Shown: positions 2,578-64,000 of the stretch, piece by piece
How the letters are laid out: each line of letters starts with the position of its first letter
Position numbering within the stretch: position 1 is the stretch's first letter
Assembly (NCBI RefSeq): GCF_030296595.1
Contig: NZ_AP027731.1
Span: 2,294,001 to 2,358,000, forward strand
Direction: 5' to 3'
DNA length: 64,000 nt
DNA from: Naasia aerilata
Lineage (GTDB): Bacteria; Actinomycetota; Actinomycetes; Actinomycetales; Microbacteriaceae
The notes under the pieces: generated by a model
What the model was told of the DNA's origin: nothing
Databases searched by the model: none
The model's input: the letters and a program-made list of their open reading frames with translations, nothing else
Program-made: the position numbers and the translations under genes

Positions 2578-2637
2578 CCGCACCACTCCGGGCTCTCCGC
2601 ATCGGTCTCCGGTTGCGGTTCGTCCGAAGTGATGCGG
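2578..2637. repeat. 60-base palindrome family, copy A (degenerate left arm)
   Basis: Same length and layout as copies at 27603-27662 and 46498-46557: it starts CCGCA, carries the loop core CGGTCTCCGGTTGCGG and ends GTGATGCGG. The left arm has several changes that weaken the stem. It lies 3' of the Clp ATPase gene, next to that gene's own terminator hairpin. Confidence 0.8.
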
Positions 2638-2693: not shown

Positions 2694-5231
<2,538 letters not shown>

Positions 5232-6321: not shown

Positions 6322-6375
6322 GTACGTTCCGGCCCGACCGGTGCGCTCCGCCGTGCCATCCGGGCCGGAACGTAC
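6322..6375. repeat. 54-base palindrome family, copy 1
   Basis: Outer arms GTACGTTCCGGCCCG and CGGGCCGGAACGTAC pair perfectly over 15 bases; the inner part GGTGCGCTCCGCCGTGCC can form a second stem. It lies between two converging genes. The second copy at 60241-60294 has compensating changes in the stem (GTAC/GTAC becomes GCAC/GTGC). It could act as a bidirectional terminator. Confidence 0.85.
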
Positions 6376-8600: not shown

Positions 8601-8736
8601 TGATTTCGAGACGCTCGCTTCGCGAGCTCCTCAATCAGCGGGTCGAGGGGTGATGCGGCGCGGATCCGCCCGAGCTCCTCAATCAGCGGGCTCTCAACCG
8701 ATGATTGAGGAGCGCCGCAGGCGCGTCTCGAAATCA
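8601..8736. repeat. TTTCGAGAC / TGATTGAGG dispersed repeat, two facing copies plus a fragment
   Basis: One unit at 8601-8637 begins TGATTTCGAGACGCTCGC and ends GAGCTCCTCAATCA. An inverted unit at 8702-8736 begins TGATTGAGGAGCGCCGCAGG and ends CGTCTCGAAATCA. A partial unit GAGCTCCTCAATCAGCGG lies between them (about 8672-8689). Another copy is at 54909-54944. The whole can fold into a long hairpin in the 200-base gap between two converging genes. Confidence 0.85.
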
Positions 8737-12616: not shown

Positions 12617-12692
12617 CCGCCGAGCGCGGTGCGAGCCGACGAGCGCGGGGCGGATACGGGGCGCGCTCGTCCGCATAGGGCGCGCTCGGCGG
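12617..12692. repeat. Nested palindrome built from CGAGCGCG units
   Basis: CCGCCGAGCGCG (12617-12628) pairs with CGCGCTCGGCGG (12681-12692). Inside it GACGAGCGCG pairs with CGCGCTCGTC around GGGCGGATACGGGG. The unit is the same as in the cluster at 27813-28023. It lies five bases after the GH3 gene, in the 130-base gap before the converging FUSC gene, so it may serve as a terminator. Confidence 0.75.
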
Positions 12693-27602: not shown

Positions 27603-27662
27603 CCGCATCACTGCGGACAAACCGCATCGGTCTCCGGTTGCGGTTTGTCCGCAATGATGCGG
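27603..27662. repeat. 60-base palindrome family, copy B (with T tract, likely leuS terminator)
   Basis: A near-perfect stem of about 23 bases (CCGCATCACTGCGGACAAAC facing GTTTGTCCGCAATGATGCGG) around the loop core CGGTCTCCGGT. TTTTTC follows at 27663-27668. Same length and loop as copies at 2578 and 46498. Confidence 0.88.
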
Positions 27663-27666
27663 TTTT

Positions 27667-28256
27667 TCATTTGCACCGGCGGAGCGCCCTGCGTCGCCGG
27701 CCGGGGACGCTGGTAGACGGGAGCGCGCGCGGCGGCAGCTTGAGGCTTAGGACGATGCGACGTGGCCCGGTTTGCGCCGCCGCGTCGCGTCGCATGCGTT
27801 GCGAGCGTCTGCCGAGCGCGCCGCGGGAGGCCGAGCGCGGTGCGCAACGTCGAGCGCGCCGCGCAACGCCGAGCGCGGTGCGTCTCCCCGCTCGAGCGCG
27901 GCCCGAGGCACCGACCGCGCTGCATCCCTCACCGAGCGCGGTCCGTACCGACGAGCGCACCCCGTCTACACCCCGCGTTCGTCGTCACGCCCCGCGCTCG
28001 GCGCACGCCCCGCGCTCGGCGGAAAGCTGGACCTGGCGAGAGCGAGTACGGCCGCCCGCCACTGCGAAGCGTTCCACCCGTCGCGGCCACACTCACCGTC
28101 TTAAGCCCAAGCGACACCCCACGAGCGCCGCACGCGCCGGCCCTTACCCCGCTGGAGCCGAGCGCCACGCCCAGTCGCCAGCACAACCGCGACCCGCGGG
28201 ACGGGCGGACAAATCGCGACGGCCAGCGAGAGTGCGGGATCCCCGCCCGACCCGCG
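27667..28256. other. Non-coding stretch without a supported gene
   Basis: About 590 bases between leuS and the sortase gene. I find no convincing coding frame: open frames here are Arg/Pro-rich by-products of GC content. The middle (27813-28023) is a cluster of CGAGCGCG repeat units. A hairpin-like GCGGGATCCCCGC near 28236 lies close to the sortase 3' end and may terminate it. Confidence 0.7.
27813..28023. repeat. Cluster of about ten CGAGCGCG-type units, mostly 19-base spacing
   Basis: Units starting CGAGCGCG or a one-base variant occur at about 27813, 27832, 27851, 27870, 27893, 27912, 27933 and 27952, four of them exactly 19 bases apart. They continue as C-G-C/G-Y-GCG plus six variable bases. 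Two or three units in reverse orientation (CCCCGCGCTCGGCG) close the cluster at about 27997-28023. The same unit builds the palindrome at 12617-12692. Confidence 0.8.
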
Positions 28257-41847: not shown

Positions 41848-42131
41848 GGCGTGCACCCCTGATCGCCGCGCTGACCGGCGTCGCTCTCCTGCTCATCGCC
41901 GTCGGCATGCCGGCAGCGCTCGCGCTCGTGAGCGGCGGACCGCGCCGCTACTACGCGTATGAGCCCCCCACCGGTGTCCTCCTGGAACTGACCGCTTCGA
42001 CTCTCGCCTCCGCGGTCGGCGTAGCTCTCGCGCTGTTCTGTCTCGGCCTCTCTCTGGGGCTGCTTCTGGGCGCCCGCCGACGGCCCGAGCAAGCGGAAGT
42101 ACGTGACGACTTGCCAGAGAATCCCGCTTAA
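41844..42131 (+). CDS. Small membrane protein, unknown (second of a coupled pair)
   Basis: 95 residues, not recognised. Helix 1 is LIAALTGVALLLIAVGMPAAL, a short outside loop follows (GGPRRYYAYEPPTG), then helix 2 ASAVGVALALFCLGLSLGLLL and a charged tail. Its first helix resembles that of the preceding protein. The last eight or so codons (about 42107-42131) lie in the left arm of the strong hairpin at 42107-42163, so the tail sequence is set partly by that structure. It starts with GTG overlapping the previous stop. Confidence 0.6.
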   Translation: MRRAPLIAALTGVALLLIAVGMPAALALVSGGPRRYYAYEPPTGVLLELTASTLASAVGVALALFCLGLSLGLLLGARRRPEQAEVRDDLPENPA

Positions 42132-42163
42132 GGGGCGTCTAAGCGGGATTCTGTGGCAAGTCG
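42107..42163. terminator. 24-base stem hairpin between converging small membrane-protein genes
   Basis: The left arm 42107-42130 and right arm 42140-42163 pair at 23 of 24 positions around a 9-base loop. No U tract follows on either side, but the stem is strong enough to act in both directions. Its left arm is the 3' end of the coding sequence. Confidence 0.75.
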
Positions 42164-45235: not shown

Positions 45236-46476
45236 ATGCCCAGCGCCCTTCCGCTCGCCGATCCGGCGCCCGCCGACGGGCTGCTGCCCGCGTCGGCCGC
45301 GGTGGAGGCGACGGACCGGGCCTTCGGCGTGTACCTGCACGTGCCGTTCTGCCGTGTGCGGTGCGGGTACTGCGACTTCAACACCTACACCGCGGACGAG
45401 CTGCGCGGGGTGCGCCGGAGCGACTACGCGGCGCACGCCTCCGCGGAGGTCGAGTTCGCCGTCGCCGCGCTCGCGGGATCCGGTGTGCCCTCACGTCCGG
45501 CGAGCACCGTGTTCTTCGGCGGCGGGACGCCCACCCTGCTTCCGGTCAGCGATCTCGCGCGGATGCTCTCCGCGGTCCGCGACGGCTTCGGCCTGGTCCG
45601 CGGCGCGGAGGTGACGGTCGAGGCGAACCCCGACTCGGTGGACGCTGTCTCGCTCGCCGCGCTCGCGGCCGCGGGGGTGACTCGTGTCTCCTTCGGCATG
45701 CAGTCCGCCGTGCCGCACGTGCTCGCGACCCTCGAGCGCACGCACGATCCTGCGCGCATCCCTCTTGTCGTCCGCTGGGCGCGGGAGGCGGGTCTCGAGG
45801 TGAGCCTCGACCTCATCTACGGAACGCCGGGGAGTCCCTCGCTGACTGGCGCCGCTCCGTCGAGGCCGCGCTCGCCGAGAGCCCCGACCACCTCTCGGCG
45901 TACGCCCTCATCGTGGAGGACGGCACGAAGCTCGCGCGACAGATCCGCTCCGGGGCCGTGCAGATGCCGGACGACGACCTGCAGGCGGACATGTACGAGC
46001 TCGCCGACTGGCTCTTCGGCGCGGCCGGCTACGCCTGGTACGAGGTGAGCAACTGGGCGCGCGTCGACGGGACGGGCGCCCCGGATCCGCGGCACCGGTC
46101 CCGGCACAACGCGGCGTACTGGACCGGCGAGGACTGGTGGGGTGTCGGTCCCGGCGCCCACAGCCACGTGGGCGGCGTTCGCTGGTGGAACGCGCGTCAC
46201 CCGGCCGCCTACGCGGAGCGCGTCCTGGCGGGGCTCTCGCCCGCGGTCGGCCGCGAGGTGCTCGCGCCGGCCACCCGGCACCTGGAGCGCGTGCTCCTCG
46301 AGACCCGGATCCGGGAAGGACTTTCGACCGCCGTCCTGTCCCCGGACGCCCGCACCGCGGTAGCGGGCCTGATCGCCGACGGCCTGGTCGATCCGGCGGC
46401 CGCCCTCCGCGGTCGCGTGGAGCTGACCATCCGCGGGCGCCTCCTCGCCGACGACGTGGTGCGCCGCCTCACCTGA
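45236..46476 (+). CDS. hemW: HemW-like radical SAM protein, frameshifted
   Basis: About 413 residues when a base is restored in the GGGG run at 45829-45832. The 4Fe-4S Cys triad is in VPFCRVRCGYCDFNTYT, followed by VFFGGGTPTLLP, VTVEANPDSVD and VSFGMQSAVPHVL. The C-terminal HemN-type domain ends in VVRRL. This group was long called coproporphyrinogen dehydrogenase-like, but HemW is regarded as a haem chaperone. The ATG at 45236 precedes an Ala/Pro stretch typical of actinobacterial members. Confidence 0.88.
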
Positions 46477-46497: not shown

Positions 46498-46557
46498 CCG
46501 CATCAGTTCGGACTATCCGCAACGGTCTCCGGATGCGGATAGTCCGAAGTGATGCGG
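46498..46557. repeat. 60-base palindrome family, copy C
   Basis: CCGCATCAGTTCGGACTATC faces GATAGTCCGAAGTGATGCGG around the CGGTCTCCGGA loop core. Compared with copy B, the stem segment ACAAAC/GTTTGT is replaced on both sides (ACTATC/GATAGT), so pairing is kept. It lies 21 bases past the hemW stop and before a converging gene. Confidence 0.88.
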
Positions 46558-46590: not shown

Positions 46591-46977
46591 TCAGCTGATG
46601 AAGCGGATCGTCAGCGGGTACTCGTACTGCTCGCCGGCGTTCGCCTTCGTGGCGGCGATGATCCCGAAGACGATGGTGAGTATCCCGATCGCGAAGATCA
46701 GGAAGAAGCCGATGACGAGCAGCACCAGGAGCCCCGAGACCACGTAGCCGAGCAGGGCGGTGATGTGGAAGTTCAGGGCCGTTCGCGTGTGCTGGGCGAT
46801 GAACGCGCCGCGGTCCTTCAGCACCAGGTAGGCGATGAGCGGAACCAGGATCGGGAAGAAGATGCCACCGATGTGCGTGAGCGTCGCCCAGAGCCGCTGG
46901 TCCTGAGGCGACATCGGCGGAGCCGGCTGGTACGGGTACTGCTGCTGTGGCGGCGGCGGGGGAGGCGTGGCGCTCAT
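46591..46977 (-). CDS. DUF4870 domain membrane protein
   Basis: 128 residues. A Pro/Gln-rich disordered N-terminus (residues 1-20) is followed by SPQDQRLWATLTHIGG, then three membrane helices with FFPILVPLIAYLVLKD and the conserved AALNF-like loop (TRTALNFHITALL). The last segment ends YPLTIRFIS. This is the DUF4870 (Tic20-related) family, of unknown role. ATG at 46977 has GGAGGT-like sequence just upstream. It is a paralogue of the next gene upstream on the same strand, and a terminator hairpin separates the two, so they may be transcribed separately. Confidence 0.85.
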   Translation of the reverse strand: MSATPPPPPPQQQYPYQPAPPMSPQDQRLWATLTHIGGIFFPILVPLIAYLVLKDRGAFIAQHTRTALNFHITALLGYVVSGLLVLLVIGFFLIFAIGILTIVFGIIAATKANAGEQYEYPLTIRFIS

Positions 46978-54873: not shown

Positions 54874-54908
54874 GCGGCCGAGCCGATCGCGATTCACCCC
54901 TGCTCCGC

Positions 54909-54944
54909 TGATTGAGGAGCTCGCGCAGCGAGCGTCCCGAAATC
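54909..54944. repeat. TGATTGAGG / CCGAAATC dispersed repeat, single copy
   Basis: TGATTGAGGAGCTCGCGCAG then CGAGCGTCCCGAAATCC, the same unit as at 8702-8736 with a few changes. It lies 35 bases past era, and the 170-base gap to the sensor kinase gene holds nothing else I recognise. Confidence 0.75.
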
Positions 54945-58300: not shown

Positions 58301-61524
<3,224 letters not shown>

Positions 61525-63016: not shown

Positions 63017-63845
63017 TGGCGAAGCCGACGACGCACCGCGACGCGGTGCCCTACCGCCCTGTCGACTGGACGGGCCAGTACCCGCCGGAGTTCCCCGCGG
63101 TGCCGTCCCCGGCCATGTCGCGGTCATCATGGACGGCAACGGGCGGTGGGCCAACGCTCGGGGGCTGTCGCGCATCGAGGGCCACAAGGCGGGGGAGGCG
63201 GCGCTCCTCGACGTCGTCGCGGGCGCCATCCAGGTCGGGGTGAAGCACCTCAGCGTCTACGCGTTCTCCACCGAGAACTGGAAGCGCTCGCCGGACGAGG
63301 TGCGCTTCCTCATGGGCTTCAACCGGGATGTGCTGCACCGCCGCCGCGACCAGCTCAACGAGTGGGGCGTCCGGATCCGGTGGGCGGGTCGCAAGCCGCG
63401 GCTCTGGGGATCGGTGATCAACGAGCTCCAGTTCGCCGAGCGCCTGACCGCCGGCAACGACGTGCTGACCCTCACGATGTGCGTCAACTACGGCGGGCGC
63501 ACCGAGATCGCGGATGCGGTCCGCGGCATCGCCGACGACGTCGCGGCGGGCAGGCTCAAGCCGTCGGCCGTGTCGGAGAAGCTGATCCAGCGCCGCCTCT
63601 ACGTCCCCGACGTGCCCGAGGTGGACCTCCTCGTCCGCAGCTCGGGCGAGCAGCGGACCAGCAACTTCCTCGTCTGGCAGGCGGCCTACGCGGAGATGGT
63701 GTTCCTCAACACCCTGTGGCCGGACTTCTCGCGCCTCGACCTGTGGCGCGCGATCGAGCAGTACGCGGACCGGGACCGCCGCTTCGGCGGCGCGATCGAC
63801 GCCCCTCCGCCTGACCTGCCCACTTCTGCGGCAACTGAGCGCTGA
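63016..63845 (+). CDS. uppS: Isoprenyl (undecaprenyl) diphosphate synthase, frameshifted
   Basis: About 276 residues if a base is restored at 63111-63112. Cis-prenyltransferase motifs: [17 protein letters not shown] with the catalytic Asp, then [21 protein letters not shown], and the C-terminal [20 protein letters not shown]. Without correction the first 31 residues are separated from the catalytic Asp. The family makes the C55 lipid carrier for cell-wall synthesis and is essential. ATG at 63016 shares a base with the recO stop. The last codons ([13 protein letters not shown]) lie in a 60-base palindrome. Confidence 0.93.
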
Positions 63846-63870
63846 GTTGCCGCAGAAGTGGGCGGGTCAG
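63811..63870. repeat. 60-base near-perfect palindrome at the uppS 3' end
   Basis: Two 30-base halves (63811-63840 and 63841-63870) pair at 28 of 30 positions, centred on AGCGCT. The left half encodes the last residues of UppS. The sequence differs from the other 60-base family here (stem CTTCTGCGGCAACT). Confidence 0.85.
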
Positions 63871-64000
63871 GGAGCAGCGCGGCGGCGAGCGGTCCCGCGA
63901 CCCACGCCTCGACCTCGCGGGAGGTGCGCAGGCGCACGATCGTGAGGTGCGGATGCTGCGCCTCCAGGGCCGGGACGGTTCGCTTGTACTTCCGCTGCGT
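63871..64000 (-). CDS. Possible 3' part of a minus-strand gene entering the window
   Basis: On the minus strand from 64000 a frame reads QRKYKRTVPALEAQHPHLTI, then VRLRTSREVEAWVAGPLAAA, with good codon bias up to the palindrome. It then continues open into the uppS gene, where it is only a shadow, so its true end is unclear. Nothing is recognised in it; it could also be broken by another missing base. Confidence 0.35.

Follow-up and report, generated by a model that had tools for sequence, protein, structure and literature searches.

Dispersed 60-nt palindromes in the genome of Naasia aerilata are paired with a gene that lies between two copies of its own palindrome and that encodes, as judged from its sequence, a protein with an AbiEi-type DNA-binding start and a Vsr/EDxHD-like nuclease end. 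We consider it probable that the two belong to one two-part repeat system, in which the palindrome would be the recognition element of the AbiEi/Vsr-like nuclease and would be copied or maintained by it. The window, meaning the whole stretch of 64,000 nucleotides analysed here (contig NZ_AP027731.1, positions 2,294,001 to 2,358,000), carries copies from five of the six gene-flanking palindrome families of this genome (G000), at the following positions:

2578..2637, plus strand (the strand of loop CGGTCTCCGG): copy A of the 60-nt palindrome P1; covariance-model score 73.6 bits; matches the palindrome flanking the cognate gene.
12620..12689, no strand assigned: P4 palindrome (CCGAGCGCG...); P4 flanks the homolog gene G000:C1:856824-857705.
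27603..27662, plus strand: copy B of P1; matches the palindrome flanking the cognate gene.
27930..28001, no strand assigned: second P4 copy in the window, of the same family as 12620..12689.
42107..42163, no strand assigned: P2 palindrome (CGACTTGCC...), 57 nt; P2 flanks the homolog gene in L227 (G000:C1 about 2,680,054-2,680,977).
46498..46557, plus strand: copy C of P1; matches the palindrome flanking the cognate gene.
60300..60361, no strand assigned: P8 palindrome (CGCGGGTG...), 62 nt; P8 flanks the homolog gene G000:C1:788241-789182.
63810..63871, no strand assigned: P5 palindrome (CTGACCTGCCCACTTCTGC...), 62 nt; P5 flanks the homolog gene in L226 (G000:C1 about 2,983,428-2,984,297).

The three 60-nt elements at 2578, 27603 and 46498 had been described in the original prediction and are present as stated, with the central CGGTCTCCGG identical in all three and with a real exchange of the stem block ACAAAC/GTTTGT in copy B for ACTATC/GATAGT in copy C. 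The P1 core pattern matches the window three times; over 100 shuffles the mean was 0.14. No Rfam family matches the window at gathering thresholds. Copy B lies 10 nt past a gene read as leuS, with a sortase-domain gene convergent to it, and copy C is enclosed by two genes, one on the plus strand with its end at 46476, the other a DUF4870 gene on the minus strand with its end at 46591. (The names leuS, aroF, pknB and parC are those that we presume from reading the proteins.) That every copy lies 3' of a gene is true of copy A with respect to a minus-strand Clp-type ATPase gene, but this copy is also 5' of a minus-strand DUF302 gene, which makes its loop strand antisense to both. Copy A may be an ageing mobile copy.

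A count of three copies proved too low. When the central 22-mer of P1 was compared with the genome (one contig, 3,391,135 bases), 34 matches were obtained at up to 3 mismatches, and the reversed-pattern control gave 0 forward and 1 reverse. Thirty-one of the 34 align as full 60-nt palindromes; the last three, at 3 mismatches, were judged to be chance matches, so that the genome holds at least 31 copies. The search of genome and relatives with a covariance model, which had been proposed together with the prediction, led to the reading of 16 further places in this genome, among them L080, whose kinship is doubtful, and to matches in six of the nine genus genomes. The genome also carries a second 60-mer subfamily. 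P1 is built of a 24-nt arm, a 12-nt centre and a 24-nt arm, ends in CCGCA and TGCGG, and has CCGCATCACTTCGGACTATCCGCATCGGTCTCCGGTTGCGGTTAGTCCGAAGTGATGCGG as the consensus of its 31 copies, two of which flank a single gene, hereafter the cognate gene.

Variation among the 31 copies is strongly uneven. An even spread of changes would leave about 6 of the 60 columns invariant, but 31 are so, and 124 of the 137 differences from the consensus are concentrated in 17 of the 60 columns. The conserved blocks are CCGCA, CGGAC, CCGCA and CGGTCTCCGG, together with their partners, while the spacers are variable in both arms and pairing there is often lost. Compensatory change exceeds the shuffled expectation by little: among 500 shuffles the observed covariation score was reached by 18, the percentage paired by 24, the number of pairs altered in both arms by 142 and that of further pair types by 5. 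Real as the change between copies B and C is, the case made from a co-varying stem and a fixed loop is weakened by the slight pairing signal over all 31 copies. On the loop strand, 16 cells of the pair table hold would-be G-U mismatches and 28 cells A-C ones; G-U mismatches being no commoner than A-C, no RNA strand appears to be selected. A purely RNA-structure reading of P1 was rejected, since covariation is weak and a G-U preference is absent. Conserved blocks separated by variable, often mispaired spacers look more like the contact points of a DNA-reading protein than like RNA held by pairing.

Target-site duplications, at k of 3 or more, were found at none of the 31 P1 copies, and within 20 nt to their left and right no column rises above 0.85 bits; hence no direct trace of insertion is seen. 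The tetranucleotides GTAG and CGTC are absent from either end of P1. DNA-uptake-type words were considered and rejected, because the family words tried are not over-represented against Markov expectation in a 464-kb sample made up of the window and a further 400-kb sample. Among the 8-mers of the 464 kb, words of the CCTTGATTTGGTCA type are the most enriched in intergenic DNA and may be a regulator site.

The placement of P1 at gene ends is pronounced. Based on gene calls from a codon-usage caller, not annotation, 18 of the 31 copies lie in convergent gaps, 8 in tandem and 4 in divergent gaps, and 1 has no gene called on one side; 4.6 convergent copies would be expected from intergenic bases (p 4e-8), and with a three-copy cluster counted once the figure is 16/29 (p 6e-7). 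Both stop codons are within 25 nt for 10 of the 18 convergent copies. The view of P1 as a dispersed, REP-like element at gene ends is borne out by these counts. In tandem gaps the loop strand is without evident bias (5 same, 3 opposite). One of the four divergent-gap copies is the upstream copy of the cognate gene itself, and divergent gaps for 4/31 copies, by the gene caller, are odd for a terminator. Long hairpins of the 464-kb sample are found in 13/67 convergent, 10/322 tandem and 0/67 divergent gaps. From its placement, re-use of P1 as a terminator is plausible, and the copies may double as two-way transcription ends.

Half of the 26 long hairpins in this sample (13) match palindromes flanking one of the six genes of this genome, 2 more match gene flanks in other genus genomes and 11 match none. 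No gene was identified in this genome for P3 and P7, and P6 matches genes of other genomes only. A family beginning GTACGTTCCGGCCCG... (window 6322-6375 and 60241-60294, and L182:13328-13383), also with no gene identified in this genome, is visually similar to the GCACGTTCCGGCG palindromes that flank genes of G001, G005 and G008, the match being not above shuffles. An 81-nt family, TCCCTCAACAGGCA..., occurs at L185:797-877 and L192:1804-1884, again with no gene identified. The window further holds an inverted repeat pair, 8602-8670 and 54876-54944, which is 77% complementary and 46 kb apart.

Palindromes with the same 24/12/24 architecture were found in six of the nine genus genomes, each with its own sequence, by means of the covariance model built from the 31 copies. 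None was found in G001, G005 and G008 among 150 candidates scored per genome; the counts take both strands and are rough, and this limit applies to the zeros too. The related copies that were read are mostly exactly 60 nt long, though the covariance model favours that length. Beyond the genus, where the filters were stricter and 36 candidates were scored per genome, 150 family genomes yielded two single matches (L124 and L125, hairpins of uncertain kinship). Of 15 matched stretches, six come from one Naasia genome and have hairpins; by eye the other 9 have none.

When the genes beside elements were compared between genomes, one protein was repeatedly flanked by elements. For P1 the cognate gene is G000:C1:182068-183027, encoding 320 amino acids with an AbiEi_4 domain, and a gene flanked by the genome's own palindromes is common to all six genomes with 60-mers. 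Five paralogs in the Naasia genome are flanked by five other palindrome families. The pairing is partly specific: the closest relatives of the cognate protein (48-58% identity) are in the other five 60-mer genomes and in none of the three genomes without 60-mers found, so that this closest group (48% identity or more) is represented in 6/6 genomes with and 0/3 without (Fisher p 0.012); more distant paralogs are present in all nine.

Forty match rows in the genus were taken as 37 genes, the remaining three being a fragment, an element and a short stretch. By hairpin search alone, palindromes were seen on both sides at 21 of 30 loci, on one side at 6 and on neither at 3. In a flank test, the 450 bases before each gene were aligned with the 250 bases after it. 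All 36 genus homologs tested scored above the 99th percentile of 337 control genes of this genome (4/337 controls do so by choice of threshold), and each exceeded 60 shuffles of its own flank; at its lower end the genus range (scores of 27-33) reaches into that of the highest-scoring controls (27-48). Since the loci L206 and L215 do not differ from each other, the 36 amount to 35 independent cases. For the 37th homolog, in L226, both palindromes were seen on reading. The flanking repeats are mostly inverted. The downstream palindrome starts at the stop codon (median 0 nt, 26/37 loci scored), and the distance from the end of the upstream palindrome to the start codon has a median of 96 nt (30/37 loci scored). 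The top control of the flank test is a gene in L191, around 4018-4735, with matching repeats CTGACCAAATCAAGGAG before and after it. At the P4-flanked gene in L219 (G000:C1:856827-857725) two homologous parts were matched separately and lie in different open frames, for which reason this gene may be broken.

Protein and palindrome similarity are correlated. Across 34 of the 37 genus genes, leaving out L206, L215 and L217, palindrome similarity tracks protein identity with a Mantel r of 0.55, reached by 0/5000 permutations; in part this correlation reflects common descent of genes at the same locus. In the protein tree the seven closest proteins do not form one clade. One locus holds a member gene in 9/9 genomes, both G001 neighbour genes being matched in the other eight; in this genome the neighbours are two IMPDH-domain genes, and neighbours at this locus are 88-95% identical in the three pairs printed. 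The palindromes at the locus are alike in G001, G005 and G008 and in G003 and G004, and otherwise different. At four other gaps (pairs L011/L066, L022/L035, L029/L095 and L070/L052) this genome and another species each have a palindrome, of their own sequence, with both neighbours matched; concerted change and repeated arrival are both possible there. In the gap after the gene read as aroF (L145-L153; L029, L095), two species have their own 60-mers in opposite loop orientation, and the same convergent gap (L145-L153) holds different palindromes or a classical terminator in others.

The pairing is broad. Homologs of the cognate protein occur in 45/60 family genomes and in 135/197 class genomes, the Naasia genome being counted in both. 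Among loci from 29 other genera of the family, each the best match from its genome and together representing 29 of the 44 other matching genomes, 24/29 have matching flanks when judged against shuffles and five do not. The class-wide loci have them in 26/29, with three lacking them, or in 22/24 without five same-family loci. In G218, from another family, a flanking 77-nt palindrome is present in 24 copies genome-wide (merged from 61 match rows), 84-95% identical to the query, two of which are beside the gene; 7 of 12 examined copies are between convergent genes, those 12 including the gene's own two flanking copies. The flanks of the class homologs L272-L274, L277 and L281 are inverted repeats and not full palindromes, and those at L272, L273, L277 and L281 contain GATCA(C/T)GTTCA. 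Several more long palindrome families are seen in L318-L327 (G034, another genus). Eighteen stretches of three genomes were scanned for palindromes only. In viral contigs, 54 stretches match a peptide pattern, and none of them encodes a relative.

The proteins are nuclease-like at one end and AbiEi-like at the other. E198, D230, E241 and G244 (E241-x-x-G), followed by K or H, are invariant in 34/34 proteins; judged by the motif, these residues would be the active site. AbiEi_4 was found in 19/25 subfamily-A proteins at E 0.1 and the PADLOC AbiEi models match up to 24/25 of them, while AbiEi families are not among the matches of the 10 subfamily-B proteins, all 10 of which contain DUF559 and REase_MTES_1575 at E 0.1. 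The two subfamilies align at E 4e-30 over most of the length of A. Compared with the PDB by sequence, subfamily B gave the mobile intron protein 3r3p and the endonuclease-like 3hrl, both weakly (E 0.001-0.007), and subfamily A gave no nuclease. L205 was left out of protein set A4 because its reading ran past a stop. We know of no role assigned to proteins of this AbiEi/Vsr-like type.

Several known systems share features with the one described here. We read it as REPIN-like, a repeat system in which a nuclease takes the place that the Y1 transposase has in RAYT systems: as in REPIN/RAYT systems, there are dispersed, extragenic, species-specific palindromes, several families per genome and a dedicated gene flanked by the repeats. 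In contrast to them, the product has an AbiEi-type winged helix and a Vsr/EDxHD-like nuclease end, the element has no conserved tag beside it, and the palindrome consists of a single long hairpin, about 60 nt in length. The Naasia system works like REPIN-RAYT, yet neither a Y1 transposase in the nine genus genomes nor an end tag on the 31 P1 copies was found. CGTC-tagged REPs, also short palindromic repeats located preferentially between unidirectional and convergent genes, are said to be without a dedicated transposase (Di Nocera et al., 2013, PMC3733652), whereas here no CGTC tag and a dedicated gene were found. AbiE type IV toxin-antitoxin systems have the AbiEi-type N-terminal domain in common, and the palindrome upstream of the gene here is comparable to the inverted repeats that AbiEi binds (PMC3985639). 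An AbiEii toxin domain, however, was not found in the ten neighbouring proteins scanned (of 13, six loci, E 1e-5), the C-terminus is nuclease-like, and the palindrome is also downstream and dispersed. The EDxHD/Vsr-like homing endonucleases (I-Bth0305I, 3r3p) have a nuclease domain related by sequence and, as described for I-Bth0305I in PMC3943268, a target of nearly 60 bp, but the gene here lies between host genes at the loci seen, not inside a target gene, and its DNA-binding part is AbiEi-like. MITEs are likewise small repeated inverted-repeat DNA without genes, but the 31 P1 copies have no target-site duplication; the gene found between palindrome copies is the AbiEi/Vsr-like one, in a block that may or may not move. 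No earlier description of the palindrome-nuclease pairing was found in searches of an open-access collection.

The inverted repeats that AbiEi binds in its own promoter measure up to 23 bp (PMC3985639), and the EDxHD enzyme I-Bth0305I is described as dimerising on its target of nearly 60 bp (PMC3943268). Joining both kinds of domain and encoded between 60-bp palindromes, the cognate protein would most simply recognise its palindrome. In the two-part system that we propose, part one would be the dispersed palindromes, mostly at gene 3' ends, and part two the cognate gene, with one palindrome before its start, another at its stop codon, and a product consisting of the AbiEi-type winged helix and the Vsr-EDxHD-like nuclease end. 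This protein, probably a dimer, would bind the blocks CCGCA, CGGAC and the central CGGTCTCCGG, would repress its own promoter via the upstream palindrome copy, and would nick or cut DNA in a reaction copying or maintaining palindromes elsewhere. Since the hairpin would end transcription in both directions, copies in convergent gaps would be tolerated or favoured. We infer each of these steps, namely binding, autoregulation, cutting, copying or mobilisation, and termination. By analogy to RAYTs, copying or maintenance by the cognate protein is the favoured reading, and the lack of an insertion trace is its main weakness.

It is conceivable that nothing moves and that the protein is a DNA-binding regulator or genome-organising protein, the palindromes being its binding sites, kept by selection (e.g. 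as roadblock-assisted terminators) and changing in concert. The promoter binding reported for AbiEi (PMC3985639) and the upstream palindrome at a median of 96 nt before the start here are in line with this, as are the confinement of P1 variation mostly to spacers and the palindromes, each of its own sequence, at four matched gaps in two species. The nuclease-type residues invariant in 34/34 proteins would be needless for a pure regulator, however, and convergent gaps are unusual for operators, so that we hold this explanation to be rather unlikely. Ordinary bidirectional intrinsic terminators, alike through recombination between copies and with a secondary association to the nuclease gene, would account for the placement between convergent genes and for the predicted RNA folds of the 31 P1 copies, which are stable (-28.9 to -54.1 kcal/mol). 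Five T (TTTTT) follow the hairpin only in copy B of the 31, by eye, with TTT in a few others, and termination explains neither why different palindrome families pair with their own genes nor why the upstream flanking copy precedes a start codon; the pairing at 36/36 genus loci argues against terminators as the full account, to which we give little credence.

The palindrome-gene-palindrome block might also be the mobile unit, like an IS with terminal inverted repeats, with the solo palindromes as left-over or miniature copies. A lone nuclease-like gene with matching, mostly inverted flanks, the inverted repeats that flank some class members and different gene-palindrome types at one locus in different species would fit such a unit, but the occurrence of a member between the same two neighbour genes in 9/9 genomes indicates that the gene mostly stays put, and the only identical within-genome copies seen, L206 and L215 of G002, have identical neighbours too; we regard a mobile block as improbable. 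REP or REPIN elements moved by a RAYT-type Y1 transposase would share the palindromic, extragenic, species-specific and preferentially convergent character that PMC3733652 gives for REPs. Y1_Tnp (PF01797) was found in 0/9 genus genomes at E 0.01, the control search being positive in 6/14 named genomes, and P1 has no conserved flanking tag. RAYT-moved REPs are therefore refuted for the nine genomes at this sensitivity, unless the transposase was recently lost in all of them, and we see hardly any chance for this explanation.

The earlier view of the elements as REP-like was right in kind and weak in its argument from structured RNA; what matters is the pairing with a gene. This pairing appears to be a means, not yet described, by which such repeats are kept or spread. 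We see about an even chance that it represents a class-wide mobile-repeat system of the Actinomycetes, in which AbiEi-winged-helix/Vsr-like nucleases would replicate or maintain their own palindromes (roughly 45-85 nt), both changing together so fast that one locus carries unlike palindrome pairs across species groups. If this is true, an orphan protein family that is very common would gain a function, and many of the long intergenic palindromes in these genomes would be explained. The pairing predicts the DNA target of each protein from sequence alone and offers a ready set of enzyme-target pairs. It suggests that REP-like repeats can have a dedicated non-RAYT gene, which bears on the origin and persistence of transposase-less REP families, and if the nuclease were shown to spread the palindromes, this would be a categorically new kind of repeat system.
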